A DNA stretch of 64,000 nucleotides from contig NZ_BCNT01000004.1 in NCBI RefSeq assembly GCF_001544075.1, positions 310,001-374,000 of the forward strand, given 5' to 3'. Of this stretch, positions 21,608 to 42,235 are shown in pieces (the first letter of the stretch is position 1; every line of letters starts with the position of its first letter). The notes beneath the pieces are model-generated. The model was not told where the DNA came from, did not search any database, and saw only the letters and a program-made list of their open reading frames with translations. This DNA comes from Comamonas terrae (GTDB lineage: Bacteria > Pseudomonadota > Gammaproteobacteria > Burkholderiales > Burkholderiaceae_C). The position numbers and the translations under genes were made by a program.

Positions 21608-23188
21608 ATGACCACCTTCGTCAACGCTACCACCCTCAAATCCTGGCTTCACGACGGCCGGGAGATCGCCCTGCTCGACGTGCGCGAGCACGGCCAGTAC
21701 GGCGAGTCGCACCTGTTCTATGCGACGCCGCTGCCCTACAGCCGGCTGGAGCTGGAAATAGAGCGCCTCGTGCCGCGCCGCCAGGTGCGTGTCGTCGTCT
21801 ATGACGGCGGCGACGCTGCCGGCGCCGGCGTGGCCGAGCGCGCCGCGCAGCGGCTGCAGGCCCTGGGTTATTCCCGGGTTGCCGTGCTTGAAGGCGGAAC
21901 GCGGGCCTGGAGCGCGGCGGGCCATGCGCTGTTCGCCGGCGTGAACCTGCCGTCCAAGACCTTCGGCGAGCTGGCCGAGCATGCCTATGGCACGCCGCGC
22001 ATCACGGCGCAGCAGCTGGCGGCGCGGCAGGCGGCAGGCGAGCCGCTGGTGGTGCTCGACGGCCGGCCGGTCCCGGAATTCCACAAGATGAACATTCCGC
22101 AAGCCGTCTGCTGCCCCAACGGCGAGCTGGCCTTGCGTGTGCGCAGCCTGGTGCCCGATGAGCACACCCCCATCGTCATCAACTGCGCGGGCCGCACGCG
22201 CTCCATCATCGGTGCGCAGACGCTGATCAACCTCGGCATTCCCAATCCGGTCTACGCGCTGGAGAACGGCACCCAGGGCTGGTATCTGGCCGATCTGCCG
22301 CTGGAGCATGGCGGCACGCGCCGATATGGCGACGATTCCGGCAGCACGGCGCTGCGCGCTCAGGCCGAGCAGCTGGCGCGGCGCTTCGAGGTGCCCTGCG
22401 TGGACGCCGCAACCGTGCGGCAGTGGAGCAGCGATGCGGACCGCACGCTTTTCCTCTGCGATGTGCGCACGCCCGAGGAATTCAGGGCCGGCACGCTGCC
22501 CGGCGCGCAGCACACGCCGGGCGGCCAGCTGATGCAGGCCGGCGACCAGTACGTGGGCGTGCGTGGCGCGCGCCTGGTGCTGTTCGACAGCGACGGCGGC
22601 GACTTCGGCCTTCGCGCGCCCGTGGTGGCGAGCTGGCTGCGCCAGATGGGACATGACGCCTGCGCGCTGCGCGGTGGCCTGCAAAGCGGGCTGGCGCTGG
22701 AGGAGCCTGTGCCGGCGCAGGCGCCCGCGCTGGCCACGATCACGGCCCAGGAGCTGGACCGCCGCATGCGGCAGGGCGAGGTGGCCGTGGTGGACCTGCG
22801 GCCGGGCATGCAGTACCGGGCCGGCCACGCCACCGGTGCGCGCTGGTCCATACGCCCGCGCCTGGCACAGGACCTGGCGGGCGAACCGCGCCAGGTGGTG
22901 CTGATTGCCGATGAGCCTGCGCTGGCGCAATGGGCCGCGCTGGAGCTGCCGCAGCCGCCATTGCTGCTGGCCGGCGGCATGGCCGCCTGGCGGCAGGCCG
23001 GGCTGCCGGTCGAATCCACGCCCGACAGCCCGGGTGATGCCGAATGCATCGACTACCTGTTCTTCGTGCACGACCGGCACGATGGCAACAAGGAGGCGGC
23101 GCGCCAATACCTGGCCTGGGAAACCGGACTTGTGGCGCAGCTCGATGCCCAGGAGCTGGCGGCTTTCCGCCTGCCAGGGGCGGCATGA
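21608..23188 (+). CDS. Four-domain rhodanese (sulfurtransferase)
   Basis: A 526-residue cytoplasmic protein made of four rhodanese modules (about 1-110, 125-235, 255-375 and 385-500). Only the second carries a catalytic loop with cysteine: C193 in VINCAGRTRSIIG. The third has LFDSDGGDFG and the fourth LIADEPA at the loop position, so they appear non-catalytic. Such tandem proteins accept sulfane sulfur (thiosulfate, persulfide) and transfer it. It lies 79 bases after the thiol dioxygenase on the same strand, suggesting joint handling of cysteine-derived sulfur. Confidence 0.85.
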   Translation: MTTFVNATTLKSWLHDGREIALLDVREHGQYGESHLFYATPLPYSRLELEIERLVPRRQVRVVVYDGGDAAGAGVAERAAQRLQALGYSRVAVLEGGTRAWSAAGHALFAGVNLPSKTFGELAEHAYGTPRITAQQLAARQAAGEPLVVLDGRPVPEFHKMNIPQAVCCPNGELALRVRSLVPDEHTPIVINCAGRTRSIIGAQTLINLGIPNPVYALENGTQGWYLADLPLEHGGTRRYGDDSGSTALRAQAEQLARRFEVPCVDAATVRQWSSDADRTLFLCDVRTPEEFRAGTLPGAQHTPGGQLMQAGDQYVGVRGARLVLFDSDGGDFGLRAPVVASWLRQMGHDACALRGGLQSGLALEEPVPAQAPALATITAQELDRRMRQGEVAVVDLRPGMQYRAGHATGARWSIRPRLAQDLAGEPRQVVLIADEPALAQWAALELPQPPLLLAGGMAAWRQAGLPVESTPDSPGDAECIDYLFFVHDRHDGNKEAARQYLAWETGLVAQLDAQELAAFRLPGAA

Positions 23189-23190
23189 AG

Positions 23191-23290
23191 CTCCCCCTGA
23201 GCGGCTGCGCTGCTTCCCCCTCTCTCGCTGCGCGGGAGGGGGACGGCACCCTCGCTGCGGGGCGGCCCTTGCTTGGTGCCCCTGGCCTGA
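23191..23290. repeat. Intergenic repeat, copy 2 of 3
   Basis: Starts CTCCCCCTGAGCGGCTGCGC and shares TCTCTCGCTGCGCGGGAGGG, CCTCGCTGCGGGGCGGCCC and TTGCTTGGTG blocks with 11671-11785. It separates the rhodanese from the Bug receptor gene. Confidence 0.8.
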
Positions 23291-23378
23291 GTTACGCCAG
23301 TTGCAAAGGCTGCGCCATGCATCGCTGACCTGCTGTAAAGCGCCATCAATCAGATCACATAACGACAGGAGACAAGAC

Positions 23379-24377
23379 ATGTTCGCAATCCCCACTCTGG
23401 CTAGGATGTTGGCCGTCAGCCTCGCGGCCCTGGCCCTGCTCTCGCAGGCAACTGCCGAGCCGCTGGCTGCGCGCAACGGCTTTCCGGCCCAGCCCATACG
23501 CTTTGTCTCGCCGTTCCCGCCCGGCGGCGGCAACGATGCCAGCACGCGCTGGGTGACCACGCGCCTGCCGGAAGTCACGGGCCAGCCGGCCGTGGTGGAA
23601 AACCGCGGCGGTGCCGGCGGCAACATCGGCGCCAAGGCCGTGGCCGAGGCCAAGCCCGACGGCTACACGCTGCTCACGGGCCAGGTGTCGCTGATGGCTG
23701 TCAACCCCACGCTGTATGGCGCGCCGGGCTTCGATCCGCTCAAGAACTTCGTGCCCATCACGCAGATCAATGCCGCGCCCCTGGCCATCGTGGTGCCGGC
23801 GGCATCGCCGCTCAAGAGCTTTGCGGACCTGGCGGAGCGCAGCAAGAGCGCGCCGGGCCGCGTCACCTACGCCACGCCCGGCAACGGCACGCTGTCGCAC
23901 CTGGTGGGCGTGGTGCTGTCCAAGGAAAACGGCGTGCCCATGACCCATGTGCCCTACAAGGGAGCCGGTCCGGCCATCAACGACCTGCTGGGCCAGCAGG
24001 TGGATGTGCTGATCACGTCCACCTCCTCGGTGGCGGGCATGATCCAGTCCGGCCAGATCCGCGCGCTGGCCGTGACCAGCCCGCGCCGCATCGGCGTGTT
24101 CGGCAAGGTGCCGACGCTGGAGGAACTGGGCTACCGCAACGCCCGCTTCGAGGACTGGTATGGCTTCTTCGCCCCGGCGGGCACATCGCCCGAGCGCGTC
24201 GCCTATCTGCACGAAGCCATTGTGCGCACGCTGCGCATGCCCGAGGTGACGCGCCTGATCGTCGAGGGCGGCAGCGAGGTCGTGGCCAGCACGCCCGAAG
24301 CCTTTGCGGCCCAGCTGCGCCAGGACATCGACCGCTGGTCGCGTGTGGTCAAGCTGTCCGGCGCCAAGGTGGAATAG
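23379..24377 (+). CDS. Bug/TctC-family periplasmic solute receptor
   Basis: A 332-residue exported receptor of the Bug (tripartite tricarboxylate transporter, TctC) family. The signal peptide ends near SQATAEP. Family motifs follow: PIRFVSPFPPGGGNDASTRWV, VVENRGGAGGNIGAKAVA, AKPDGYTLL and HVPYKGAGPAINDLLGQQVDV. The ribosome site CAGGAGA sets ATG at 23379. No TctA/TctB membrane genes are in the window. Sitting between the rhodanese and the MetC-like lyase, it may bind a sulfur-containing acid, but this is inferred only from position. Confidence 0.9.
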   Translation: MFAIPTLARMLAVSLAALALLSQATAEPLAARNGFPAQPIRFVSPFPPGGGNDASTRWVTTRLPEVTGQPAVVENRGGAGGNIGAKAVAEAKPDGYTLLTGQVSLMAVNPTLYGAPGFDPLKNFVPITQINAAPLAIVVPAASPLKSFADLAERSKSAPGRVTYATPGNGTLSHLVGVVLSKENGVPMTHVPYKGAGPAINDLLGQQVDVLITSTSSVAGMIQSGQIRALAVTSPRRIGVFGKVPTLEELGYRNARFEDWYGFFAPAGTSPERVAYLHEAIVRTLRMPEVTRLIVEGGSEVVASTPEAFAAQLRQDIDRWSRVVKLSGAKVE

Positions 24378-24406: not shown

Positions 24407-25609
24407 ATGAATCCTGAATTTCCCCCGGCTCCGCAATGGAACCCGCAAACCCGGCTGCTGCGCGCCGGCAAGGCGCCGGCCTACGCCGGCGGCACGGCGG
24501 TCAATCCACCGCTCGTGCGCGCGAGCACGGTGCTGTTCGACAGCACGGCGCAGCAGCGTGAAATGCGCGGGCGCCGCGGCGACGAGCGCATCTTCAGCTA
24601 CGGCGCGCGCGGCACGCCCACGAGCTTTGCGCTCGAAGATGCGGTCAGCGAACTCGAAGGCGCCTACCGCACCCGGCTTCTGCCCACGGGGCTGGCGGCC
24701 ATAGGCATGACGCTGCTGAGCTATCTGCGGCCCGGCGACCACGTGCTGCTCACCGACAGCGCCTACCAGCCCGTGCGCCATATGGCGAGGCAGTTCCTGC
24801 AGCCCTACGGCATCGAATACAGCTTCTTCGCGGCCGACGGCAGCGATGCCGAAGCCGGCATGCGCCCCAACACGCGCATGCTCTATGCCGAATGCCCGGG
24901 CTCGCTGGTCTACGAGATGTGCGACCTGCCCGCGCTCGCGGCCATGGCCCATGCGCGCGGCGCCCTGGTCGTGGTGGACAACACCTGGGGCTCGGGCGTG
25001 CAGTACCGGCCGCTGGCTTTGGGCGCCGATGTTTCCATCATGGCCGCGACCAAGTACCTCTCGGGCCACTCGGACGTGATGATGGGCACGGTCGCCACCA
25101 CGCAGGCAGCGTGGGCGCCGCTGGCCGAGCGCTGCGACGCCTTCGGCATGGCGGTCAGCCCCGACGATGCCTGGCTGGTGCTGCGCGGCATGCGTTCGCT
25201 GGGCGCGCGCCTGCAGATGCATGGGCAGCACGCGCTGGTAGTGGCGCGCTGGCTGCAAGCCCATCCGGCCGTGGCCACGGTCTTCTGCCCGGCATTGCCC
25301 TCGCACCCCGGCCATGCGCTGTGGCAGCGCGACTGCCATGGCACGAACGGCCTGCTGTCGCTGGAATTGCGGCCCGGCACGCCGCAGGCGGCCGTGGATC
25401 GCCTGATCGACGGATTGCAGCTGTTCGGCATCGGCGCCTCCTGGGGCGGCTACGAAAGCCTGGTGACGCAGGCCCATATGGCCGAAGCCCGCAGCGTGAC
25501 CGACTGGAGCCGGCGCGGCCCGGTGGTGCGGCTGCACATAGGGCTGGAAGACCCTGCCGACCTGGTGGCCGACCTGGCCCGGGCCATGGATCAGGCGGGC
25601 CTGGCCTGA
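24407..25609 (+). CDS. metC: Cystathionine beta-lyase-type PLP enzyme
   Basis: A 400-residue Cys/Met-metabolism PLP enzyme. The PLP lysine is K216 in IMAATKYLSGHSD; YGARGTPTSFALE (near 65-78) and VVDNTWGSGV (189-198) are further landmarks of the proteobacterial cystathionine beta-lyase branch. It would split cystathionine to homocysteine, pyruvate and ammonia, or act as a cysteine desulfhydrase. It lies 29 bases after the Bug gene on the same strand and is probably part of the sulfur cluster. It converges on the CitE-type gene with six bases between stops. Confidence 0.87.
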   Translation: MNPEFPPAPQWNPQTRLLRAGKAPAYAGGTAVNPPLVRASTVLFDSTAQQREMRGRRGDERIFSYGARGTPTSFALEDAVSELEGAYRTRLLPTGLAAIGMTLLSYLRPGDHVLLTDSAYQPVRHMARQFLQPYGIEYSFFAADGSDAEAGMRPNTRMLYAECPGSLVYEMCDLPALAAMAHARGALVVVDNTWGSGVQYRPLALGADVSIMAATKYLSGHSDVMMGTVATTQAAWAPLAERCDAFGMAVSPDDAWLVLRGMRSLGARLQMHGQHALVVARWLQAHPAVATVFCPALPSHPGHALWQRDCHGTNGLLSLELRPGTPQAAVDRLIDGLQLFGIGASWGGYESLVTQAHMAEARSVTDWSRRGPVVRLHIGLEDPADLVADLARAMDQAGLA

Positions 25610-25615
25610 TGCTTC

Positions 25616-26488
25616 TCAGCCGGCACGCATCCTGCGCTGCTCGGCCCAGGCGTGGCGCGCCAGGGTCTGCCGGGCCATGTGGAGTATGGGCGCATCGACC
25701 ATCTTGCCGTTGACCGTGCAGACACCGCCGTGGGCAGCCTGCATGGCCTGAACCACGGCGCCGGCATGGGCCACGGCCTGCTCGGAAGGCGCAAACACCT
25801 GATTGACCGTGGCGACCTGGGCCGGATGGATGCACAGCTTGGCGCCAAAGCCCATGCGCAGCGCGCGCTGCGTGTCGCTTTCGATGCGGGCGCTGTCCCG
25901 CGTATCGGTGGTGACGCCGTCCACGGGCCGGGCCAGGCCCGCGCGGCGCGAGGCCAGCACCAGGCTCAGGCGCACGGGCTGCAGTTCGGCTTCGTCCGGC
26001 GCGCACTGCATGCCGGCGTCGACCTGGAAATCCAGATGCCCGAAGGCCAGCCGCGCCACCTGCGGGACACGGGCCAGCGCATCGGCGGCATCCAGGCCCG
26101 CCACGCTTTCCACCAAAGGCACCAGCGCGCAGCGCGGGCCGGCGGCTGCGGCAATCTGCTGCAGTGCAGCGGCGCTTTCGGCCTTGGGCACCATGGTCCC
26201 GGCCGCGCCGACGGCCACCAGCCGCGCCAGGGCCTGCACGTCGTCGTCGAACCAGGGCGTGCCCGAGGCGTTGATGCGCACCAGCAACCGTGCGCGTTCG
26301 GCCGTGGAAAGCAGCTGCAGCGTCTGTTCCAGGGCGAGGCGGGCGGCCGGCTTGTCGTCCGGCGCCACGGCATCCTCCCAGTCGGCGATCACCATGTCGG
26401 CGCCGCTGGCCAGGGCCTTGGCCAGCCGCTCGGGCCGGTTGGCGGGAACGAACAGAAAGGTGCAGGCGTTGTGCAGCAAGGCGCTCAT
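25616..26488 (-). CDS. CitE/HpcH-type lyase, probable citramalyl-CoA lyase
   Basis: A 290-residue TIM-barrel protein of the HpcH/HpaI - CitE family. The N-terminal FLFVPANRPERLAKAL and DWEDAVAPDDK (D36, E38, D39), the RINASGTPWF strand and ALVPLVESVAGL carry the substrate and Mg2+ positions; GAKLCIHPAQV is the C-terminal family motif. Members cleave citryl-, malyl- or citramalyl-CoA. It is the last gene of a seven-gene minus-strand set with CoA transferase, MaoC hydratase and MmgE/PrpD, which favours citramalyl-CoA cleavage to acetyl-CoA and pyruvate. It starts seven bases after the Bug gene stop. Confidence 0.85.
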   Translation of the reverse strand: MSALLHNACTFLFVPANRPERLAKALASGADMVIADWEDAVAPDDKPAARLALEQTLQLLSTAERARLLVRINASGTPWFDDDVQALARLVAVGAAGTMVPKAESAAALQQIAAAAGPRCALVPLVESVAGLDAADALARVPQVARLAFGHLDFQVDAGMQCAPDEAELQPVRLSLVLASRRAGLARPVDGVTTDTRDSARIESDTQRALRMGFGAKLCIHPAQVATVNQVFAPSEQAVAHAGAVVQAMQAAHGGVCTVNGKMVDAPILHMARQTLARHAWAEQRRMRAG

Positions 26489-26495
26489 GGCTGCC

Positions 26496-27512
26496 TCATT
26501 CGGCCGATACGCCGGCCGCCTTGATGACGGTGCGCCAGCGGGCGACCTCGGCTTCCAGGTGCTTGCGCAGGCCTTCGGGCGTGGCCTTGTCGGGCGTGAC
26601 GAGGTCCGAGCTGAGCTCGGCGATGCGTTTCTTGACGTTCTCGTCCTTGATGGCCACGTTCAGCGCCTTGTTCAGCCTGTCTATCACCTCCCCGGGCGTG
26701 CCCTTGGGGGCATACATGCCGTGCCAGACCTTGACGTCGAAGCCCTTGAGGCCCTGCTCGTCCAGCGTCGGGATATTGGGCAGGGACGACAGGCGCTGGG
26801 GCGTGGTCACGCCGAAGACCTTGGCGCGCTTGCCGTCCTGGATCACGGGCACGGTCTGGGTGGTCTGGTCGCACAGCAGGTCCACCTGGCCGCCCATCAG
26901 GTCGTTCATGGCGGGGCCGGCGCCCTTGTAGGGCACGACGGTCAGCTTCACGCCCGCCTGGTGCATGAACAGCATGCCGCACAGCTGCGATACCGCGCCC
27001 ACGCCGGCATTGGCCAGCGACACCGTGTCCTGGTGCTTCTTCACGTAGTCCAGCAGCTCGGGGAAGGTGTTGGCCGGGAAGTCCTTGCGCGACAGCAGGG
27101 TCATGGGCACGTCCAGCACCTGGCCGATGTACTCGAAGTCCTTGAGCGGGTCGTAGGGCAGCTTCTTGTACAGCGAGGGGGCCGTGGCCATGCCCATGTG
27201 GTGGATCAGGATGGTGTAGCCGTCGGGCCGGGAGCGCACGATGCGCGCCGGCGCCAGCGTGCCGCCCGCGCCCACGGTGTTCTCGACGAGCACCGTCTGC
27301 CCGAGGTACTGCCCCATGGGCACGGCGAGCAGGCGCGCCACCACGTCGGTCGGGCCGCCGGCGCTGTAGGGCACGACCAGGGTCACGGGCTTTTCGGGCC
27401 AGGTATTGGCCATGGCGCTTCCAGCCAGGCCCAGGGCCAGCAGGGCGCAGGCGGCCGTGATGCGGCGGCGGTCGGTACCGCGGCGATGGTTGAGGTGTGG
27501 CGATGTGGTCAT
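26496..27512 (-). CDS. Bug/TctC-family periplasmic solute receptor (itaconate-like island)
   Basis: A 338-residue exported receptor. The signal peptide has a long basic N-region (HRRGTDRRRITAACALLALGLAGSAMA) ending before NTWPEKPV. Family motifs: VTLVVPYSAGGPTDVVARLLA, VENTVGAGGTLAPARIV, SRPDGYTILIH and VVPYKGAGPAMNDLMGGQVD. ATG at 27512 has GAAGGAGA eight bases upstream, better than the ATG five codons earlier. It is embedded between PrpD-like and CitE-like genes, so it may bind the pathway's carboxylic acid. No TctAB partner is near. Confidence 0.9.
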   Translation of the reverse strand: MTTSPHLNHRRGTDRRRITAACALLALGLAGSAMANTWPEKPVTLVVPYSAGGPTDVVARLLAVPMGQYLGQTVLVENTVGAGGTLAPARIVRSRPDGYTILIHHMGMATAPSLYKKLPYDPLKDFEYIGQVLDVPMTLLSRKDFPANTFPELLDYVKKHQDTVSLANAGVGAVSQLCGMLFMHQAGVKLTVVPYKGAGPAMNDLMGGQVDLLCDQTTQTVPVIQDGKRAKVFGVTTPQRLSSLPNIPTLDEQGLKGFDVKVWHGMYAPKGTPGEVIDRLNKALNVAIKDENVKKRIAELSSDLVTPDKATPEGLRKHLEAEVARWRTVIKAAGVSAE

Positions 27513-27620
27513 GAATGTCTCCTTCATCTGGGTTCTGGCGGGCTTACTTCCGGTCTTGCGCCGGTTGTTCGAAGGTTCCCGGCCGGGCCGGCCGGGAGAG
27601 GGGAAAAGGCGATGCCAGGC

Positions 27621-28985
27621 TCACGCCAGCAGCGCGGCCGTGCGGCTCCACTGCGCCACCTGCCACAGCTGCTGCACGGCGGCCTCGGCCCGCGCTGCGG
27701 GCACGGCGCCGCCATAGGCGGCCAGGCGCAGCGCCTTGGCCGTGATCTCCTCGCGCGACAGCGTGTTGCCCGGGTCGCCCTTGGGCTCGTCGATGCGGCC
27801 CTGGAGCTGGCGGCCGTCCGTGGTCTGCACGGTGACCTTGCCGATCCAGCGCCGCGGGTAGGCCGTGTCCACCTCGGCATCGAGTTCCATGCGCACTTTT
27901 TCGCGCAGCTCCACGGTCTCGGGCGCCAGGTAGTCGCGGTCGAATTCGCCCAGGCCCGCATGGCCGTGGCGCGCGGCCAGGGCCAGCACGGTGCCCATGG
28001 AAAACTTGCTCTGGTGCACGGTGCTGGGGCTGACCACGGGGCCTAGCACGTCGAGGGCGCCCTGGTGCACATGGCAGGTGACCTGCGCGATGTCGCCGGT
28101 GCCCACGCCATGCGTGCGCATGACCTGCAAGAGCGCATCGGCCGCAGGGTGCGTGTGGCGGCATGACGCATGCCACTTGAACGAAGTCTCGGCCGTGGCC
28201 CAGCGTGTGCCAAGGCCGTCGGTGAGACGGGCGGGATCGGCGTCGCTGGACATGCCCGCGGCCATGCCCTGCGGCCCGGTGAAGATGTGCTGCGCGCCCG
28301 TGAATCCGTCCTGTGCCAGGTAGGCCGCCATCAGTCCCGCAGCGGCCGCGTGGGCCGTGTGCAGCTGTTTGCTGTCGGCGGCGGTGCGCAGGAATTCCCA
28401 CAACCCCGCCGATTGCGTGCCGGCCGAGCCGAAGGCGTGCTGCATCTGCGCGGGCGTCAGCTTCAGCAGCCGCCCGACGGCGGCGGCGGCGGCCAGCGTG
28501 CCCGCCGTGGCCGTGGTGTGGAAGACCTTGTAGTGGCTGCGGCCCAGGAATTCGCCCACACGGATGCCGACCTCGTAGCCCGCCACGCAGGCCGCCATGA
28601 GCTCGGCGCCGCTGGCTCCGATGCTCTGCGCCACGGCCAGCGCGGGCGGGAAGACAACGGCCGCAGGGTGGAACACGGAGCCGTTGTGCACGTCGTCCTG
28701 CTCGGCCACATGCGAGGCCGCGGCATTGGCCAGTGCCGCCATCATGGGCGAGGTGCTGGCGCCGTGGCCTATCACCTCGCTGGGTCCCTGGCCAGGCCCT
28801 TGCGCCAGCGCGAAGCGCGTGATGCTGGCCACGGGCCGCGCCTGGCAGCCTGCCAGCACGGAGCCGAACCAGTCCACCCACAGGTCTTCGGCGCGGCGCT
28901 GCACGGCATCGGGCATGTCGCTCCACTGGAGCCGGGCGGCAAACCGGGCCAGAGGATGGGTGCTTGCTTGGGTTTCTTGCTTCAT
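27621..28985 (-). CDS. MmgE/PrpD family protein
   Basis: A 454-residue member of the family that contains 2-methylcitrate dehydratase, cis-aconitate decarboxylase and iminodisuccinate epimerase. Landmarks are DLWVDWFGSVLAG, EQDDVHNGSVFHPAAVVFPPALAVAQ, the His/Lys segment HYKVFHTTATAGT and FKWHASCRHTHPAADAL. All are present and the length is normal, so it should be active. Relatives are found next to CoA transferase and CitE genes in itaconate loci, where their reaction is not settled. It lies between the CoA transferase and a Bug receptor. Confidence 0.85.
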   Translation of the reverse strand: MKQETQASTHPLARFAARLQWSDMPDAVQRRAEDLWVDWFGSVLAGCQARPVASITRFALAQGPGQGPSEVIGHGASTSPMMAALANAAASHVAEQDDVHNGSVFHPAAVVFPPALAVAQSIGASGAELMAACVAGYEVGIRVGEFLGRSHYKVFHTTATAGTLAAAAAVGRLLKLTPAQMQHAFGSAGTQSAGLWEFLRTAADSKQLHTAHAAAAGLMAAYLAQDGFTGAQHIFTGPQGMAAGMSSDADPARLTDGLGTRWATAETSFKWHASCRHTHPAADALLQVMRTHGVGTGDIAQVTCHVHQGALDVLGPVVSPSTVHQSKFSMGTVLALAARHGHAGLGEFDRDYLAPETVELREKVRMELDAEVDTAYPRRWIGKVTVQTTDGRQLQGRIDEPKGDPGNTLSREEITAKALRLAAYGGAVPAARAEAAVQQLWQVAQWSRTAALLA

Positions 28986-29035
28986 TTCGGGCTCTGTGGC
29001 TTTCGGAGAAAACGCTGGCAGCTATGGTTTTTGAA

Positions 29036-30217
29036 TCAGATGGCCTGGGGCATCTGCAGTGCGTCGATCTGCTCGGCAGACCAGCCGAGTTCGGCCAGGA
29101 TGGCCGCGTTGTGCTGGCCCACGGCGGGCACGGCGTCCATGCGGTAATCGAAGGCGCTGTTCACGCCGGGCGGCAGCAGCGCGGGCACTTCGCCCGCGGG
29201 CGTGGGCACCTGGCGCCAGCGGTTGCGGGCCTGCAGCTGAGGGTGGGCCCACAGGCCGGCCATGTCGTTGACGCGCGCGTTGGCTATTGCCGCCGCGTCC
29301 AGCCGCTCCACCACCTGCGTGGCCGTGAGGCCGGCAAAGATGTCGAGGATCAGCGCCTGCAGTTCGGTGCGGTGCCGGTTGCGTCGGGCGTTGCTGTCGA
29401 AGCGCGCGTCGGTGGCGACTTCGGGGCGCTGCAGCACTTCGTCGCAGAACACTTTCCACTCGCGCTCGTTCTGCAGGCCCAGCATCACGGTGCCGCCGTC
29501 GCCTGCCACAAACGGCCCGTAGGGGTAGATGCTGGCGTGGCTGGCACCCGTGCGCGGGGGCGGGGGGGCGCCGTCGAACGCGTAGTACATCGGGTAGCCC
29601 ATCCACTCGCCCATGGCTTCGAGCATGGAGACGTCGATGTGGCTGCCCTCGCCCGTCCTGCCGCGCAGCAACAGGGCCGAGAGGATGTTGGTATAGGCGT
29701 ACATGCCGGCCGCGATATCGGCCACGGAGATGCCGGCCTTGGACGGTGCATCGGGCGTGCCGGTGATGGAGAGAAAGCCGGCCTCGCTCTGGATCAGCAG
29801 GTCGTAGGCCTTCTTGTCGCGGTAGGGCCCGTCGCTGCCGTAGCCGCTGATGTCGCAGACGATGAGCCTGGGGTTGTGGCTTTTCAGCGTCTCGTAGGAA
29901 AGGCCCATGCGCGCCGCCGCACCGGGCGCGAGATTCTGCACCAGCACGTCGGCCGTCGCCAGCAGCTGCAGCAGCGCGGCCTTGGCCTGTGGCTGTTTCA
30001 CGTCGAGCGCCAGGCTCTCCTTGCTGCGGTTGATCCAGGTGAAGTGCGAGGACTGGCCCTTGACGCGCTGGTCGTAGCCGCGCGCGAAGTCGCCGCTGCC
30101 GGGACGCTCCACCTTGATGACGCGCGCGCCCAGGTCGGCGAGCTGGCGTGTGCAGAACGGGGCAGCCACCGCGTGTTCGAGCGAGACGACGGTGATGCCG
30201 TCCAGAGGTCGGGTCAT
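29036..30217 (-). CDS. Class III (CaiB/BaiF) CoA transferase
   Basis: A 393-residue CoA transferase. The N-terminal LDGITVVSLEHAVAAPFCTRQLADLGARVIKVERPGSGD is the family signature; the candidate catalytic aspartate is D139 in AYDLLIQSEAG, aligned with the active Asp of other class III enzymes. DVSMLEAMGEWMGYP and the C-terminal interlocking segment are present. It likely moves CoA from succinyl-CoA to a dicarboxylic acid such as itaconate, mesaconate or citramalate, given its neighbours. AGAGAGAAG precedes the start. It is 17 bases after the acyl-CoA dehydrogenase. Confidence 0.88.
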   Translation of the reverse strand: MTRPLDGITVVSLEHAVAAPFCTRQLADLGARVIKVERPGSGDFARGYDQRVKGQSSHFTWINRSKESLALDVKQPQAKAALLQLLATADVLVQNLAPGAAARMGLSYETLKSHNPRLIVCDISGYGSDGPYRDKKAYDLLIQSEAGFLSITGTPDAPSKAGISVADIAAGMYAYTNILSALLLRGRTGEGSHIDVSMLEAMGEWMGYPMYYAFDGAPPPPRTGASHASIYPYGPFVAGDGGTVMLGLQNEREWKVFCDEVLQRPEVATDARFDSNARRNRHRTELQALILDIFAGLTATQVVERLDAAAIANARVNDMAGLWAHPQLQARNRWRQVPTPAGEVPALLPPGVNSAFDYRMDAVPAVGQHNAAILAELGWSAEQIDALQMPQAI

Positions 30218-30234
30218 GTCTTCTCTCTTAAAAG

Positions 30235-31401
30235 TTAAAAGGAACGGGGCAGACCGAGGATGTGCTCGGCCACGTAGGAGTAAATGAGGTTGGTGGAGAT
30301 GGGTGCAACCTGGTAGAGCCGCGTTTCGCGGAACTTGCGCTCCACGTCGTATTCGCAGGCGAAGCCGAAGCCGCCGTGGAACTGGATGCAGGCGTTGGCC
30401 GCCTCCCAGCTGGCCTTGGCCGCCAGGTACTTGGCCATGTTGGCCTGGGCGCCCATGGGTTCATGCTTGTCGAACAGCTCGCAGGCCTTCCAGCGCATGA
30501 GGTTGGCGGCCTCGACTTCGATGAAGGCATCGGCGATGGGAAACTGCACGCCCTGGTTCTGGCCGATGGGGCGGCCGAAGACCTGGCGGTCCTTGACATA
30601 GCTGGTCACGCGGTCGAGAAACCAGTAGCCGTCGCCAATGCACTCGGCAGCGATCAGCGTGCGCTCGGCGTTCAGGCCATCGAGGATGTACTTGAAGCCC
30701 TTGCCCTCCTCGCCGATCAGGTTCTCCTCGGGGAGCTCCAGGTCCTCGAAGAACAGCTCGTTGGTCTCGTGGTTGACCATGTTGGGGATGGGGCGCACGG
30801 TGAGGCCCTTCTTCTGCGCCTCGGCCAGGTCCACCATGAAGATGGACATGCCCTCGCTCTTCTTCTTCACGTCGGCCAGCGGCGTGGTGCGCGCCAGCAG
30901 GATCATCCAGTCGCTGTGTTGCACGCGGCTGATCCAGACCTTCTGGCCGTTGACCACGTAGCGGCCGTCCTTCTTGACGGCACTGGTCTTGATCTTGGTG
31001 GTGTCGGTTCCCGTGGTGGGCTCGGTCACGCCCATGGACTGCAGGCGCCATTCTCCGCTGGCGATCTTGGGAAGGTACTTTTCCTTCTGCGCCTTGGAGC
31101 CGTGGCGCAGCAGCGTGCCCATGTTGTACATCTGGCCGTGGCAGGCGCCGGAGTTGCCGCCGCAGCGGTTGATCTCCTCCATGATGACGCTGGCCTCGGT
31201 CAGACCCAGGCCGGAGCCGCCGTATTCCTGCGGGATCAGCGCAGCCAGCCAGCCGGCCTGCGTGAGCGCGTTGACGAAGGCCTCGGGGTAGGCGCGCTGC
31301 TCGTCGATCTTGCGGAAGTATTCATCCGGGAATTCCGCGCACAGCGCGCGGATGGCGTCGCGGATCTCGTGGTGGTTGTTGGAACTGGTGTGTTCGATCA
31401 T
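30235..31401 (-). CDS. Acyl-CoA dehydrogenase
   Basis: A 388-residue flavin acyl-CoA dehydrogenase. Three domains are visible: an N-terminal helical part (to about 125), the beta domain with SMGVTEPTTGTDTTKIKT and WISRVQHSDWMILLART, and the C-terminal helices with GRPIGQNQGVQFPIADAF and IQFHGGFGFACEYDVERKFRE, near the FAD- and catalytic-site region. It oxidises an acyl-CoA, passing electrons to ETF. In related itaconate loci an acyl-CoA dehydrogenase accompanies the core genes, possibly for a methylsuccinyl- or other branched acyl-CoA. Spacing to the CoA transferase is 17 bases. Confidence 0.9.
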   Translation of the reverse strand: MIEHTSSNNHHEIRDAIRALCAEFPDEYFRKIDEQRAYPEAFVNALTQAGWLAALIPQEYGGSGLGLTEASVIMEEINRCGGNSGACHGQMYNMGTLLRHGSKAQKEKYLPKIASGEWRLQSMGVTEPTTGTDTTKIKTSAVKKDGRYVVNGQKVWISRVQHSDWMILLARTTPLADVKKKSEGMSIFMVDLAEAQKKGLTVRPIPNMVNHETNELFFEDLELPEENLIGEEGKGFKYILDGLNAERTLIAAECIGDGYWFLDRVTSYVKDRQVFGRPIGQNQGVQFPIADAFIEVEAANLMRWKACELFDKHEPMGAQANMAKYLAAKASWEAANACIQFHGGFGFACEYDVERKFRETRLYQVAPISTNLIYSYVAEHILGLPRSF

Positions 31402-31414
31402 TTCAAGCCTTCTT

Positions 31415-31465
31415 GAGCTGCCAGCGCTCTTGCATCAAGCACAGGCAGCCATGGTTTCGATAGTT
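31415..31465. repeat. AGCTGCCAGCGC-family inverted repeat inside the island
   Basis: AGCTGCCAGCGCTCTTGC and the degenerate opposite arm CAGGCAGCCATGG lie between the hydratase stop and the dehydrogenase start. It matches the better-formed copy at 13064-13149 and may act as a weak processing or pausing structure within the operon. Confidence 0.5.
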
Positions 31466-31466
31466 T

Positions 31467-32342
31467 TCAAGCCAGCGTGGCCATAGCCTGCATGGTGAGG
31501 AAGCCTTCGTGGTCCTGGGCCCACAGCTCCACGGCCCGGCCGTCCGCGGACGGCTTGCCGTGCACGCTGAACGGGTGCAGATCGAAGGTGGGCCGCACGG
31601 CCTTGAAATCGAACTCGGCCAGCCGCGTGCCGGGCAGGCTGCGGCGCAGCAGGTCGACCAGCAGCGTGGCGATCAGCGGGCCGTGCACGATCAGGCCCGG
31701 GTAGCCTTCGACCTGGGTCACGTACCGGCGGTCGTAATGGATGCGGTGGCCGTTGAAGGTGAGGGCCGAGTAGCGGAACAGCAGCACATCGTCGGGGACG
31801 ATGGTGCGCGACCACATGGCCTGCGCGGGAGGCTGTTGCGGCTGCGGCACCGGATCGCCGGGCCGGGCCAGGGGTCTATAGACGATGTCGTGTTCCTCGG
31901 TCAGCGCCAGGCCGTTCTCGTTCGAGAAACGGTGCTCCACCTGCACGAACAGCAGCTCGCCCGAACGTCCCGCCTTGTGCCTGACGCTCTGGATGGTGGA
32001 AGTGCGCTGCACCTCCTGCCCGACCTGCAGCGGGTTGCGGGCTTCCCAGCGCAGCCGTCCGCCGGCCCACATGCGGCGCGGCAGCGGCACCGGCGGCAGA
32101 AAACCGCCGCGCCGGGGGTGGCCGTCGGGGCCGATCTCGCTCTGGCGCGCATGCGGCAGAAAGTACAGCCAGTGCCACAGAGGTGGAATCTCGGTGCCCG
32201 GCACGGGTGCGGCATCCTCGCGGTCCAGCGTGGCCGACAGCGCGCGCACGGGAGCGGCGGTCATGGTGTCGAGCGTGGTCTCGCTCCTGCCCTGCCAGGA
32301 TTGCAGATGGGCCAGGGAGGCGGGGTCGATGGAGATGGTCAT
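31467..32342 (-). CDS. MaoC-type double hotdog hydratase, probable itaconyl-/mesaconyl-CoA hydratase
   Basis: A 291-residue FAS1-like dehydratase/hydratase with two hotdog halves (about 1-150 and 170-290). The hydratase motif in the second half reads FNGHRIHYD (N197 to D204): H202 of the usual D-x-N-P-I/L-H-x-D is kept while the first Asp is Asn. This altered motif is typical of the mesaconyl-C4-CoA/itaconyl-CoA hydratase group as I recall it. YRPLARPG and GYPGLIVHGPLIATLLVDLL are further family marks. With CoA transferase and CitE lyase it would complete hydration to citramalyl-CoA. Confidence 0.82.
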   Translation of the reverse strand: MTISIDPASLAHLQSWQGRSETTLDTMTAAPVRALSATLDREDAAPVPGTEIPPLWHWLYFLPHARQSEIGPDGHPRRGGFLPPVPLPRRMWAGGRLRWEARNPLQVGQEVQRTSTIQSVRHKAGRSGELLFVQVEHRFSNENGLALTEEHDIVYRPLARPGDPVPQPQQPPAQAMWSRTIVPDDVLLFRYSALTFNGHRIHYDRRYVTQVEGYPGLIVHGPLIATLLVDLLRRSLPGTRLAEFDFKAVRPTFDLHPFSVHGKPSADGRAVELWAQDHEGFLTMQAMATLA

Positions 32343-32425
32343 GGCGATGGCTCAGTGCAAGGTCCCGGGAAGCTGGCGCGCCCCACCCAGGCGTGGTGAG
32401 GGGCGCGCAGCGACACGGCGGGCGT

Positions 32426-33430
32426 TCAATTGATCGTCGCGCCCGAGGTCTTCACGATGCGGGCCCATTTGGCGATGTCCTGCTTCAAGGTGGCGGTTAT
32501 TTCTTCGGGCGTGGCCTGGCGTGCCGGCGTGCCGGCGAGTTCAACGCCCTGGGCCTGCAGCTGGGCGCGCATGTCCTTGTCTGCCATGGCCTGGTGCATG
32601 CCGTCGCGCAGCCTGGCCAGCACCTCCTGGGGCACGCCCGCGGGCGCGAACAGCGCAATCCACAGCGTGCCGTTGTAGCCAGGCACGAATTCGCCCAGGG
32701 CCGGAACGTCGGGCAACACGGGCGAGCGTTGCGCGCTGCTGACCGCCAGCGCCCTGAGCTTGCCCGCCTTGATGTACTGCAGCGTGGACGGCAGGCTGCC
32801 GAACAGCAGCGGCAGCTGTCCCCCCAGTACGTCGTTGAGCGCCGGCGCCACACCCTTGTAGGGCACATGCTGCAGCTCGATGCCGGCCATCTGGTTGAGC
32901 ATCTCGCCCAGCAGGTGGTTGAGCGTGCCGTTGCCCGCGGAGGCGTATTGCAGCGCGCCGGCCCGGGACTTGGCCAGCGCCAGCAGCTCGGGAACCGTCT
33001 TGGCCGGAAACGAGGGATGGGCCAGCAGCACGTTCGGCACGGCGCCGATCATGCTGACTGGCGTGAAGTCCGCCACGGGATCGAAGCCCGGAGCCTTGTA
33101 GAGTGCGGGATTGATGGCCTGGCTGCTGCTGATGGTCATGAGCAGCGTATAGCCGTCCCTGGAGACCTTGGCCACGGCCTGCGTGCCGATATTGCCGCCA
33201 GCGCCGGGGCGGTTCTCCACCACCGTGGCCGCCGCCAGCTTCTCGCCCAGCTTCTGGGCCACGATGCGGCCGACGATGTCATTCGTGCCGCCTGCGGCCT
33301 GGGGCACCACCAGCACAATGGGGCGGCTGGGATAGCTGCCTTGCGCCACGGCCGGGAATGCAGCAGGCAGCCCCAGGCCCAGCAGAATGCTGGCGCAGGC
33401 GGTACGGCGGGATGCGGAGCAGGCATGCAC
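32426..33430 (-). CDS. Bug/TctC-family periplasmic solute receptor (first gene of the island)
   Basis: A 334-residue exported receptor. GTG at 33430 is chosen since GAGGAG lies nine bases upstream and a normal signal peptide follows (ASRRTACASILLGLGLPAAFPAVAQ); the frame is open further to 33556 but without ribosome site. Family motifs: PIVLVVPQAAGGTNDIVGRIVA, VVENRPGAGGNIGTQAVA, SRDGYTLLM and HVPYKGVAPALNDVLGGQLPL. It is divergent from the LysR gene and is the promoter-proximal gene of the minus-strand set. Confidence 0.88.
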   Translation of the reverse strand: MHACSASRRTACASILLGLGLPAAFPAVAQGSYPSRPIVLVVPQAAGGTNDIVGRIVAQKLGEKLAAATVVENRPGAGGNIGTQAVAKVSRDGYTLLMTISSSQAINPALYKAPGFDPVADFTPVSMIGAVPNVLLAHPSFPAKTVPELLALAKSRAGALQYASAGNGTLNHLLGEMLNQMAGIELQHVPYKGVAPALNDVLGGQLPLLFGSLPSTLQYIKAGKLRALAVSSAQRSPVLPDVPALGEFVPGYNGTLWIALFAPAGVPQEVLARLRDGMHQAMADKDMRAQLQAQGVELAGTPARQATPEEITATLKQDIAKWARIVKTSGATIN

Positions 33431-33509
33431 GGCGGGTGTCTCCTCGTTGGAATTTGCCGCTATGCTCGCCGCGCCTGCCGCACGGCACAATCTGTCATAT
33501 TGGAAGCGA

Positions 33510-33530
33510 GGCTTTTGTTTTTTCGAAGCC
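33510..33530. promoter_or_regulatory. LysR-type dyad between lysR and the itaconate-like genes
   Basis: GGCTT and AAGCC flank exactly 11 bases (TTGTTTTTTCG), giving T-N11-A. The site lies 32 bases before the lysR ATG and 80 bases before the Bug gene start, a usual position for a LysR-type recognition site. Confidence 0.55.
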
Positions 33531-33561
33531 TTGCCGGGCCTGGTACATACCCTCAAGCACC

Positions 33562-34488
33562 ATGCAGTTTGACCTCAAGGATCTTCGACTCTTTGTTTTG
33601 ATAGCTCAAACTGGAAGCCTGACAAGGGCTTCAGAGCAATCCCATCTGTCGCTGGCTGCCACCAGTGCACGCATCCGCGCGCTGGAGGAACAGGCCGGCA
33701 TGCCTTTGCTGATCCGAGAGGCTAGGGGTGTAAGGCTTTCGGCGCCCGGCGAGGCCTTTTTGCACCATGCGCGGGCCATGCTGCAGCAGTCGCGCCAGCT
33801 TCAGGCCGACCTGCAGGAGTACGGCGCGGGACTGCGCGGCCATGTGCGCGTGTTTGCCAACACGACGGCGGTGGCGGACTTCATGCCCGACATCCTGGCG
33901 GCCTATCTCACCGAGCATCCCCATATCAGCGTGGACCTGCAGGAGCGCCCGAATGCTGGCATCGCGGCCGACATCCGCGACGGGCGCGCCGACCTGGGAA
34001 TTGTTGCCGGAGCCGTGGATACCCATGGGCTGCGCGTGATGCATTTCAGCACCGATCGGCTGGTGCTGGTGGCGCCCGATACCGAGCGCTGGGCAAAGCT
34101 GGATTGCGTGGCGTTCGCCGATGTGCTGCACGAGCGCTTCGTGGGCATGCACCGCGGCAGCACGCTGCAGACCTTTCTCGACCATTTGGGCCAGCAGCTG
34201 GGGGCCACGCTGAAGCTGCGCATACAGCTATCCAGCTTTGACACCATGTGCCGCATGGTTGCCGCCGGCGTGGGCATTGCCGTGGTGCCCGAGACGGTAG
34301 CCCTGCGCTTTCGCGGCACGCCGCAGGTATGCCGCGTGCCGCTGACAGATGCCTGGGCTGTGCGCCCGCGCTACATGCTGGTGCGCGAGGAGCAGCAGTT
34401 GTCGGCCCACCTGCAGGAGTTGATCGCCGCCATCGAGGACTATCACGATTGCCCGACGCCGGAGTTCCCCGGGGCTAGCGCCCGTTAG
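33562..34488 (+). CDS. LysR-family regulator of the itaconate-like island
   Basis: A 308-residue LysR regulator: MQFDLKDLRLFVLIAQTGSLTRASEQSHLSLAATSARIRALEEQAGMPLLIREARGV is the DNA-binding end and the effector domain follows from about 90. It is divergent from the Bug-hydratase-dehydrogenase-CoA transferase-PrpD-Bug-CitE genes with a T-N11-A dyad between. This is the standard layout for an inducer-dependent activator; itaconate or a related acid is the predicted effector. Its stop overlaps the stop of the opposing gene by four bases (TTAG). Confidence 0.87.
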   Translation: MQFDLKDLRLFVLIAQTGSLTRASEQSHLSLAATSARIRALEEQAGMPLLIREARGVRLSAPGEAFLHHARAMLQQSRQLQADLQEYGAGLRGHVRVFANTTAVADFMPDILAAYLTEHPHISVDLQERPNAGIAADIRDGRADLGIVAGAVDTHGLRVMHFSTDRLVLVAPDTERWAKLDCVAFADVLHERFVGMHRGSTLQTFLDHLGQQLGATLKLRIQLSSFDTMCRMVAAGVGIAVVPETVALRFRGTPQVCRVPLTDAWAVRPRYMLVREEQQLSAHLQELIAAIEDYHDCPTPEFPGASAR

Positions 34489-40134: not shown

Positions 40135-41121
40135 ATGCCCAGCCCCTTTTCTTTGCGCCGCGCCGGCCGCATCGCCGGCATCGCGGCCCTGCTGGCCAGC
40201 CCCTGGTGGGCGGCGGCGCAGGCCGCCGATGCCTGGCCCAGCAAGCCCATACGCATCATCGTGCCCAATCCGCCGGCCGGGCCTTCGGACATCGCCATCC
40301 GTCCGATTGCCGCGGCCGTGCAGGGCGTATTGGGGCAGGCCGTGGTCGTGGAGAACAAGCCCGGCGCCAACGGCAACATCGGCGCGGCCGAGGCCGCCCG
40401 CTCGGCCGCCGACGGCTACACCTGGCTCTGGGCCATGGACCCGGTGATCACCGTCAACAAGCACATCTACAAGAACATCGGCTACCAGAGCGATGCGCTG
40501 GTGCCCCTGAATGCCGCGGCCCGCTTCTCGCAGGCGCTGGTCTGCAACCCCAGGCTGGGCTTCAAGACCGTCAAGGACATGATCGACGCGGCCAAGACCC
40601 GCGACCTGACCTATGCCACGGGCGGCGCAGGCTCGCCCGGGCACCTGGTGATGGAGTCGCTGCTGAGCACCGCCGGAGTCAAGATGGTGCACATCCCCTA
40701 CAAGGGGCCGGCGCCCGCCATGCAGGACCTGATGGGAGGCCAGGTGGATTGCGGCTTTCTGGCTGCGCCCACCGCGCTGCCGCAGATCCAGAGCGGGCGT
40801 GTGACGGCGCTGGCGACTTCGGGCAGGCAGCGCTCGGCGCTGCTGCCCAAGCTGCCCACGATTGCCGAGTCGGGCTATCCGGAGTTCGACGGCACCTTCT
40901 GGCTGTTCCTGGCCGCGCCCAAGGGCGTGCCGCCAGAGATCCAGAAGCGCTTCCTCGCGGCCATGGATGCAGCCATCCGCTCGCCGGAGCAGCAGGAGAA
41001 GGTCAAGTCCGTGGACATCGAGATGGTCGGGTCGAGCCCCGAGCAGGCCCAGGCCAAGGCCCGCGAGCTTTCCGACAAATGGGGTGCGCTGGCGCGCAGG
41101 ATCCAGCTCAAGACGGATTGA
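40135..41121 (+). CDS. Bug/TctC-family periplasmic solute receptor (MarR-linked)
   Basis: A 328-residue exported receptor. Signal peptide MPSPFSLRRAGRIAGIAALLASPWWAAAQA. Motifs: PIRIIVPNPPAGPSDIAIRPIA, VVENKPGANGNIGAAEAA, AADGYTWLW and HIPYKGPAPAMQDLMGGQVDCGF. CGAGGAGA sets ATG at 40135. Expression is probably under the divergent MarR protein. A second Bug gene follows 124 bases later in the same direction. Confidence 0.9.
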   Translation: MPSPFSLRRAGRIAGIAALLASPWWAAAQAADAWPSKPIRIIVPNPPAGPSDIAIRPIAAAVQGVLGQAVVVENKPGANGNIGAAEAARSAADGYTWLWAMDPVITVNKHIYKNIGYQSDALVPLNAAARFSQALVCNPRLGFKTVKDMIDAAKTRDLTYATGGAGSPGHLVMESLLSTAGVKMVHIPYKGPAPAMQDLMGGQVDCGFLAAPTALPQIQSGRVTALATSGRQRSALLPKLPTIAESGYPEFDGTFWLFLAAPKGVPPEIQKRFLAAMDAAIRSPEQQEKVKSVDIEMVGSSPEQAQAKARELSDKWGALARRIQLKTD

Positions 41122-41245
41122 TGAACGGGCCGGAGGCTGCGCCGCAATCGCGCCGGCAGCGCGCTGAAAAGGCGCGTTGCCCAGGTCCGGCATGGCCGGC
41201 GGGCTGGCCTACACTGCATTTTTTCGGCGATGTCGCGGGAGATCT

Positions 41246-42235
41246 ATGACGATGCAAAGAAGAACCCTGGTCCGCATGCTGGCGTGCGCCGGCATGGCGG
41301 CGGCCGCAGCCAGCGCGCAGGCGCGTGCCGAGGAAGCGCTGTTCCCGAACAAGGCGCCGCTGCGCATCGTGGTCGGCTATCCGCCCGGCGGCGCCACCGA
41401 CCGCGTGGCCCGCATCGTGGCCGACAAGCTGCAGGCCCGCATGGGCAGCCCGGTGATCGTGGAAAACAAGCCCGGCGCGGGCGGGCGCCTGTCGGCCCAG
41501 CAGGTGAAGAACCTGCCGGCCTCCCAGCCCACGTTGCTGCTGGCCAATCCGGCCGCCATGGTGGTGGCGCCGCTGGTGTTTGCCGACTCCGGCTACGACC
41601 CCGAGAAGGACTTCCGCCCGGTCAGCGAGGTCAACCGCTACGAATTCGGCCTGGCCGTGGCCAGCGCCGTGCCGGTCAAGCAGCTGTCGCATTTGTTCGC
41701 CTGGCTCAAGGCCAATCCGCAGCAGGCCAACTTCGGCGTGCCGGCCACGGGCAGCCTGCCGCACTTTTTCGCTCTGATGCTGGGCGAGGCGGCCAAGGTG
41801 CCCGTGGAGGTCGTGGGCTACAAGGGCTCGGGTCCGCTGCTCACCGACCTGATGGGCGGTCAGGTGCCGATCGCCGTGGACACCCTCGACACACAGATCG
41901 CCCAGCACGAAGCGGGCAAGCTGCGCGTGCTGGCCACCTCGGGCGAAAAGCGCAGCCCGATGGCGCCGGGCATTCCCACGCTCAGGGAGCTGGGCGTGGA
42001 CCTCGTGGGTACGGGCTGGAACACCTTGTTCGCCCCGCAGAGCATGGCGCCGGTCACGGTGCAGCGCCTGTCGCAACTGGTGCAGGAGGTGATGAAGGAT
42101 GCGGACACGCAGCAGAAGTTCGCGGCCTCCAACCTGATGCCCGTGGTCAGCAGCGCCGAGGAAACCGCGCGCATGCTCCGGGCCTACCGCGCCCAGTGGG
42201 CGCCCGTGGTCCAGCGCTCGGGCTTCAAGCCGTGA
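41246..42235 (+). CDS. Bug/TctC-family periplasmic solute receptor
   Basis: A 329-residue exported receptor with signal peptide MTMQRRTLVRMLACAGMAAAAASAQARA. Motifs: PLRIVVGYPPGGATDRVARIVADKL, VIVENKPGAGGRLSAQQVKN and VVGYKGSGPLLTDLMGGQVPIAVD. The usual DGYTLL motif is replaced by QPTLLLANPAAM, a departure also seen in a sub-branch of the family. CGGGAGA precedes ATG at 41246. It may share a transcript with the previous Bug gene. Confidence 0.88.
   Translation: MTMQRRTLVRMLACAGMAAAAASAQARAEEALFPNKAPLRIVVGYPPGGATDRVARIVADKLQARMGSPVIVENKPGAGGRLSAQQVKNLPASQPTLLLANPAAMVVAPLVFADSGYDPEKDFRPVSEVNRYEFGLAVASAVPVKQLSHLFAWLKANPQQANFGVPATGSLPHFFALMLGEAAKVPVEVVGYKGSGPLLTDLMGGQVPIAVDTLDTQIAQHEAGKLRVLATSGEKRSPMAPGIPTLRELGVDLVGTGWNTLFAPQSMAPVTVQRLSQLVQEVMKDADTQQKFAASNLMPVVSSAEETARMLRAYRAQWAPVVQRSGFKP

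Follow-up and report, generated by a model that had tools for sequence, protein, structure and literature searches.

The window analyzed here is a stretch of 64,000 nucleotides from Comamonas terrae (NCBI RefSeq assembly GCF_001544075.1, contig NZ_BCNT01000004.1, positions 310,001 to 374,000 of the forward strand), and its positions 25616-34488 hold a putative operon of seven minus-strand genes with a divergent LysR-type regulator. The operon very probably serves the degradation of itaconate and methylsuccinate, branched C5 dicarboxylates, by an enzyme pathway of the Pseudomonas aeruginosa type, and includes genes for two periplasmic receptors (BugA and BugB) of the tripartite tricarboxylate transporter (TTT) type. 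All eight genes are found where the original prediction, made from the sequence alone, had placed them, and open reading frame (ORF) positions and Pfam matches agree with that layout. From 33430 down to 25616 the order on the minus strand is BugA, Ich, Mcd, Ict, Msi, BugB and Ccl, with 83, 65, 17, 50, 93 and 7 bp between successive genes. The features are as follows (Pfam matches with E-values).

33562..34488, plus strand: LysR-type regulator, divergent (LysR_substrate, 4.8e-44)
33431..33561, no strand: divergent intergenic stretch, presumed from its position to hold the promoters of the operon and the regulator
32426..33430, minus strand: BugA, first operon gene, second periplasmic TTT-type receptor (TctC, 2.5e-67)
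31467..32342, minus strand: ich, homolog of itaconyl-CoA hydratase / mesaconyl-C4-CoA hydratase (FAS1_DH_region, 2.3e-9, a weak match)
30235..31401, minus strand: mcd, homolog of methylsuccinyl-C4-CoA dehydrogenase (acyl-CoA dehydrogenase C-terminal domain, 3.4e-34)
29036..30217, minus strand: ict, homolog of itaconate/(R)-methylsuccinate CoA transferase, class III, CaiB family (CoA_transf_3, 4.2e-108)
27621..28985, minus strand: msi, homolog of (S)-(R)-methylsuccinate isomerase (MmgE_PrpD N-terminal domain, 7.9e-75, and C-terminal domain, 1.3e-40)
26496..27527, minus strand: BugB, periplasmic TTT-type receptor of the BugD/MatC dicarboxylate group (TctC, 4e-65)
25616..26488, minus strand: ccl, last operon gene, homolog of (S)-citramalyl-CoA lyase, CitE family (HpcH_HpaI, 3.6e-33)

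Judging from the start codons of relatives, BugA more likely starts at the GTG at 33430, ahead of the signal peptide, than at the mechanically called TTG at 33556, and the regulator gene would begin with the ATG at 33562, which places the two presumed starts about 130 bp apart. Between 25500 and 34600 a consensus scan returned no sigma-70-like promoter (0.6 expected) and a terminator scan returned four candidates (4.6 expected), which is no excess. The end of ccl adjoins that of a convergent ORF, at 25609.

As P. aeruginosa reference we used a plasmid-borne copy of the PA0877-PA0886 arrangement (L036), taken as a stand-in for the PA genes because gene order and isomerase residues agree; the active-site positions given for the isomerase in PMC12290011 (H88, E91, H102, Y148, H152, K202 and K266) match the exact letters of the L036 Msi. 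This locus is NZ_CP131792.1 706389-725618, part of an 847-kb record labelled as a conjugative plasmid, and it includes IctPQM-like genes and their neighbors. Identity to the L036 proteins is 78.2% for Mcd (302/386 residues), 71.5% for Ict (281/393), 60.4% for Msi (271/449), 47.6% for Ich (131/275) and 45.6% for Ccl (124/272). The regulator is 44.4% identical to that of L036 (132/297), whose next match in the window is at 24.6%. The homologs of Ich, Ict and Ccl are neighbors on one strand, with those of Mcd and Msi in the same cluster. The PDB yielded two matches for Ich, 8huc and 8khg, both at 247 bits, of which 8khg is named itaconyl-CoA hydratase. The window Ich is the sole match of the L036 Ich in the source genome, and the window Ccl is the better (47%) of two matches of the L036 Ccl, the other being at 31%. 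The original prediction had recognized here a P. aeruginosa-type pathway of Ict, Ich and Ccl accompanied by acyl-CoA dehydrogenase and MmgE/PrpD genes, and it is borne out by these comparisons, in which the five enzymes range from 46 to 78% identity.

Gene clusters of the PA0878-PA0883 type were characterized in 2025 as a pathway for both itaconate and methylsuccinate (PMC12290011), and Pseudomonas putida equipped with the P. aeruginosa genes shows growth phenotypes that agree with the pathway (PMC9875883); P. putida KT2440 itself is described in PMC9875883 as not growing on these acids. The individual steps were established by others for the orthologs of Cupriavidus necator and P. aeruginosa (PMC12290011 and publications cited in it) and are assigned here by orthology. 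Ict would transfer CoA from succinyl-CoA onto itaconate or (R)-methylsuccinate, the two acids that its C. necator and P. aeruginosa orthologs activate with succinyl-CoA (PMC12290011), while Msi would convert (S)- into (R)-methylsuccinate as the free acid. Mcd would then oxidize methylsuccinyl-C4-CoA to mesaconyl-C4-CoA, the product described for its ortholog (PMC12290011), Ich would turn itaconyl-CoA or mesaconyl-C4-CoA into (S)-citramalyl-CoA, and Ccl would cleave the latter into acetyl-CoA and pyruvate. By the habit of its family, the divergent LysR may switch the operon on. That the window enzymes perform the same steps as the tested orthologs is strongly suggested for Ict, Mcd and Msi, and less so for Ich and Ccl, which are less than 50% identical to the tested enzymes. 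Methylsuccinate is probably a main input; the authors of PMC12290011 regard the cluster as being for methylsuccinate more than for itaconate. Methylsuccinate and mesaconate had both been named beforehand as alternative inputs; the C. necator CoA transferase is described as not activating mesaconate (PMC12290011).

Within the genus the gene order is kept beyond chance. Scanning of 36 relatives gave 23 with a close Msi, whose loci were fetched, and 20 of these 23 have Ich-Mcd-Ict-Msi-BugB-Ccl in that order on one strand. The three that miss it are L065, in genome G026, and two contigs that measure 4.6-4.7 kb, L057 and L069. A second set, of named loci, consists of the best 80 of 569, and in 53 of them the complete enzyme set is encoded on a single strand, no farther than 8 kb from Msi; the 27 others, several of which are short contigs, were left out of the counts because a search of that strand and distance missed at least one of the five enzymes. 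Same-genus and named counts overlap, some loci coming from the same genome. Among the best 40 matches listed from 507 plasmid records, Msi orthologs form a separate band of identity, the first 19 being at least 54.6% identical and the following ones at most 39.4%.

According to PMC12290011, msi genes always lie next to the dehydrogenase gene. In three 2-Mb g40 genomes (G428, G377 and G112; loci L165, L166 and L168) Ich-Msi-Ccl-BugB form a cluster that lacks Mcd and Ict; the genes for these two enzymes are neighbors at a second locus in these genomes as well as in G259 and G403. The notion that g40 genomes have Msi without Mcd and Ict was rejected for the five Msi-bearing ones on the strength of this second Mcd-Ict locus, and the split loci look like exceptions to the adjacency of isomerase and dehydrogenase genes in which the gene set is still complete. 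A comparable split is seen in G384, where L150 (G384:C17:916800-929800) is a cluster of LysR, BugA, Ich, Ict, Ccl and BugB without Mcd and Msi, and the latter two adjoin each other on another contig. On an actinobacterial plasmid of Rubrobacter indicoceani (L041), relatives of Msi (61%) and Mcd (59%) lie beside lactate racemase-like and MaoC genes, with no match to Ict, Ich or Ccl in the 19 kb fetched.

The enzyme pathway is of an already known kind, seen here as a recurrent operon of Comamonadaceae, and the part worth following is its association with receptors. The P. aeruginosa arrangement includes IctPQM, a tripartite ATP-independent periplasmic (TRAP) transporter, and no tblastn match of IctP, IctQ or IctM was obtained in the 64-kb window at 1e-3. 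BugB is present in 33 of the 53 five-gene loci, and BugA in eight, all of which have BugB too. IctPQM-like TRAP genes (IctP/IctM-like) occur in three, without BugB in L123 and L148 and with it in L131. Seven of the eight loci with neither a Bug nor a TRAP match were inspected for other transporters by way of 10 chosen ORFs, and two of the eight, L084 and L095, have a major facilitator superfamily (MFS) gene after ccl. The source genome has 93 matches to the receptor TctC (Bug) and two to the permease TctA; the latter two come from C3 and C25, and the window from contig C4. These numbers, by which most of the receptors lack an associated permease gene, fit the orphan-receptor pattern described for Bordetella and others in PMC5812351, where Comamonas testosteroni appears in a table. 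In the open-access literature we found neither a characterized Bug for itaconate nor a published answer on uptake for this arrangement.

The closest solved relative of BugB is BugD of Bordetella pertussis (2f5x; 346 bits, 51.2% identity), followed by MatC of Rhodopseudomonas palustris (6hke; 245 bits, 38.8%). A quick tree made from 146 Bugs places BugB with both in a group of 67 rows (support 100), within which its own clade numbers 50 rows (support 98): 48 adjacent to pathway genes, that of the window, and one exception (L152, in G067). These adjacency counts are biased, the tree having been drawn mostly from Msi loci. The published ligands are aspartate for BugD and malate for MatC (PMC5812351, PMC8556258), and a C5-acid ligand is hypothesized for BugB. 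In BugD and MatC a glycine-rich loop and the serine S151 are described at the ligand (PMC5812351, PMC8556258). All rows at least 60% identical to BugB (52/52) have an AGGPTD loop, shared with BugD, and also a serine at position 151 of the chain; this serine presumably corresponds to S151 of PMC8556258, as mapped from the serine in both deposited chains. It marks the wider group rather than BugB because it is equally kept in rows of 50-59% identity (13/13).

A fairer view than that of the tree is given by a scan started from BugB itself, covering 399 genomes and yielding 106 rows (105 non-self), with adjacency counted by hand from coordinates. Nine of the 11 non-self rows of at least 60% identity adjoin pathway genes: those of G006, G428, G377, G238, G259, G403 and G112 are next to Msi, that of G384 is beside Ich, Ict and Ccl, and that of G328 is beside a piece of Msi at a contig end. 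The 94 weaker rows include a single one, G192, that shares its contig with a listed Msi no more than 10 kb away; for two others that were fetched, G186 and G284, the 13 kb obtained contain an Mcd relative of 78-79%.

BugA, 34% identical to BugB, is a different and rarer receptor. It lies outside the BugD/MatC group and has a GGTND loop and an asparagine at position 151 in 11/11 rows, which make up its own clade and, counting the window, are all pathway-adjacent (with the same bias toward Msi loci). The order scan with BugA gave two non-self matches of at least 70%, one inside the itaconate cluster of G384 and one in G006. The latter, fetched after the tree and not part of it, is next to a 64% LysR relative, and its other neighbors (another Bug, a LuxR-type regulator and a DUF1016/YhcG-type nuclease) gave no clue to a ligand. 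The support for BugA as a receptor of the pathway is much weaker than that for BugB.

We propose that a periplasmic Bug receptor, more likely BugB than BugA, catches the acid and hands it over to a shared TctAB permease encoded elsewhere, a step to which we would give an even chance. About equally balanced is the wider proposal that BugB orthologs are dedicated orphan receptors for itaconate and methylsuccinate, the TTT counterpart of IctP, which would work with shared TctAB and take the place of IctPQM in Comamonadaceae and related Burkholderiales; the pathway may have a further receptor, restricted to some lineages, in BugA, which would serve another of its acids. The original prediction had both Bugs feeding the pathway in place of a TRAP carrier; this agrees with the lack of an IctPQM match in the window and is plausible, strengthened for BugB by neighborhood and phylogeny and much less well supported for BugA. 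It is also quite possible, if short of an even chance, that the enzymes work as proposed while BugB binds ordinary C4 dicarboxylates or aspartate, BugA has some other ligand, and a different carrier brings in the C5 acids. Several findings pull in that direction and away from dedicated receptors. BugB is 51% identical to a protein crystallized with aspartate, its best solved relative, and its letters of the dicarboxylate group are nothing peculiar to it, the serine 151 being kept in the 50-59% rows too. A BugB of 62% in G348 lies away from the pathway, as does one of 64% in G067, which has no Msi or Mcd match and a CaiB relative of only 36%. Around the BugA of G006 (72%, the best outside the cluster), the fetched 13 kb contain no gene of the pathway. 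Ten of the 53 five-gene loci have other Bugs only, and the eight mentioned above have no Bug or TRAP match at all. In the window itself there is no tctAB beside either Bug, and the locus is not a complete TctCBA operon. On the other hand, BugB stays between msi and ccl in the 20 conserved same-genus loci, its place is sometimes occupied by TRAP or MFS genes, and in G384 both receptors accompany a set reduced to Ich, Ict and Ccl. The exchange of BugB, TRAP and MFS genes beside a constant set of enzymes makes the orphan-receptor question directly testable, and the proposed role of BugB provides a concrete ligand hypothesis for one of the 93 Bug-family receptors of the source genome.

It is improbable that the cluster degrades a different acid by way of CoA esters and resembles the itaconate genes at the level of families only. 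Such a reading could draw on the moderate identities of Ich and Ccl, which tell against our pathway assignment, and on the NCBIfam equivalog models, for which no window protein reaches the cut-off; the window Ccl scores 163.8 bits with RipC_Ccl (NF038242), whose cut-off is 375 bits. These cut-offs say little here, and we set them aside as an uninformative membership test, since the P. aeruginosa-type Ccl (157.7 bits) and Ict of L036 likewise fall below them; the L036 Msi has no model match at 1e-20. Also unfavorable to the assignment is L065 (G026:C92), where an Msi of 71% identity is the sole pathway enzyme in the fetched 16 kb. The different-acid reading is opposed by the 60-78% identity of Ict, Mcd and Msi to P. 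aeruginosa proteins, found together with Ich and Ccl, and by the presence of a PA0880-like (Rdo) gene in six of the 53 five-gene loci (L071, L088, L101, L117, L136 and L142). In P. aeruginosa, PA0880 is described as a lactonase that opens the itaconate derivative 2-hydroxyparaconate (PMC9875883). The PA0880-like gene was also seen in L090; the copies are 52-61% identical to that of L036 and often lie between BugB and Ccl, and tblastn found no match to it in the window.

The orthologs of the MmgE/PrpD protein in C. necator and P. aeruginosa were identified as (S)-(R)-methylsuccinate isomerase (PMC12290011). All seven active-site residues are kept in the window Msi, as H92, E95, H106, Y152, H156, K206 and K270 in the order of the published numbering above, and the source genome has no second Msi match at E <= 0.001. 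Among PDB matches it scored 161 bits with a Bacillus protein labelled IRG1, whose role as a decarboxylase is doubted in PMC12290011, 124 bits with IDS-epimerase, and 56-64 bits, the weakest, with solved chains named cis-aconitate decarboxylase. That Msi should instead be a cis-aconitate decarboxylase, supplying the pathway internally with itaconate made from aconitate as had been suggested beforehand, is highly implausible and was rejected, as the shared protein family and the conserved family residues are outweighed by the low decarboxylase scores, by the match to the isomerase (60% identity, with Y148, the second catalytic residue named for it, among the kept positions), and by the report in PMC12290011 of no detectable activity of the isomerase on itaconate, citraconate, mesaconate, cis- or trans-aconitate; the aconitate-to-itaconate idea is left unsupported because the isomerase orthologs showed no detectable activity on cis-aconitate and the active-site residues are kept.

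The C. necator cluster (E6A55_22580-22600), compared by its published description in PMC12290011, likewise has the five-gene set, a nearby TTT-type receptor gene (E6A55_22575, of unknown function according to that paper) and, as in the window, no homolog of the P. aeruginosa transporter; the window differs in having two receptors, with BugB between msi and ccl. The P. aeruginosa PA0877-PA0886 arrangement, represented by L036, has the LysR, Ich, Mcd, Msi, Ict and Ccl homologs in common with the window (44-78%), differs in its order, Ich-Mcd-Rdo-Msi-Ict-Ccl, and has in addition IctPQM and the PA0880 lactonase. The three-gene itaconate (rip) operon of the Yersinia type carries out the same overall itaconate chemistry with non-homologous or distantly homologous enzymes and without Mcd and Msi, and is set apart by the description in PMC12290011. 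All eight kinds of gene found in the window are present on a 424-kb plasmid of Comamonadaceae bacterium OTU4NAUVB1 (L038), with identities of 68% for BugA, 71% for Ich, 78% for Mcd, 75% for Ict, 60% for Ccl, 72% for BugB, 70% for Msi and 54% for the divergent LysR, in an order unlike that of the window, BugA-Ich-Mcd-Ict-Ccl-BugB-Msi.

Further Bug genes lie elsewhere in the window on the plus strand. At 21608-24377, a short way outside the cluster, a gene that by eye resembles a multi-domain rhodanese is followed by one of them (TctC match at about 23547-24356), and a tandem pair with TctC matches is found at about 40300-42223.

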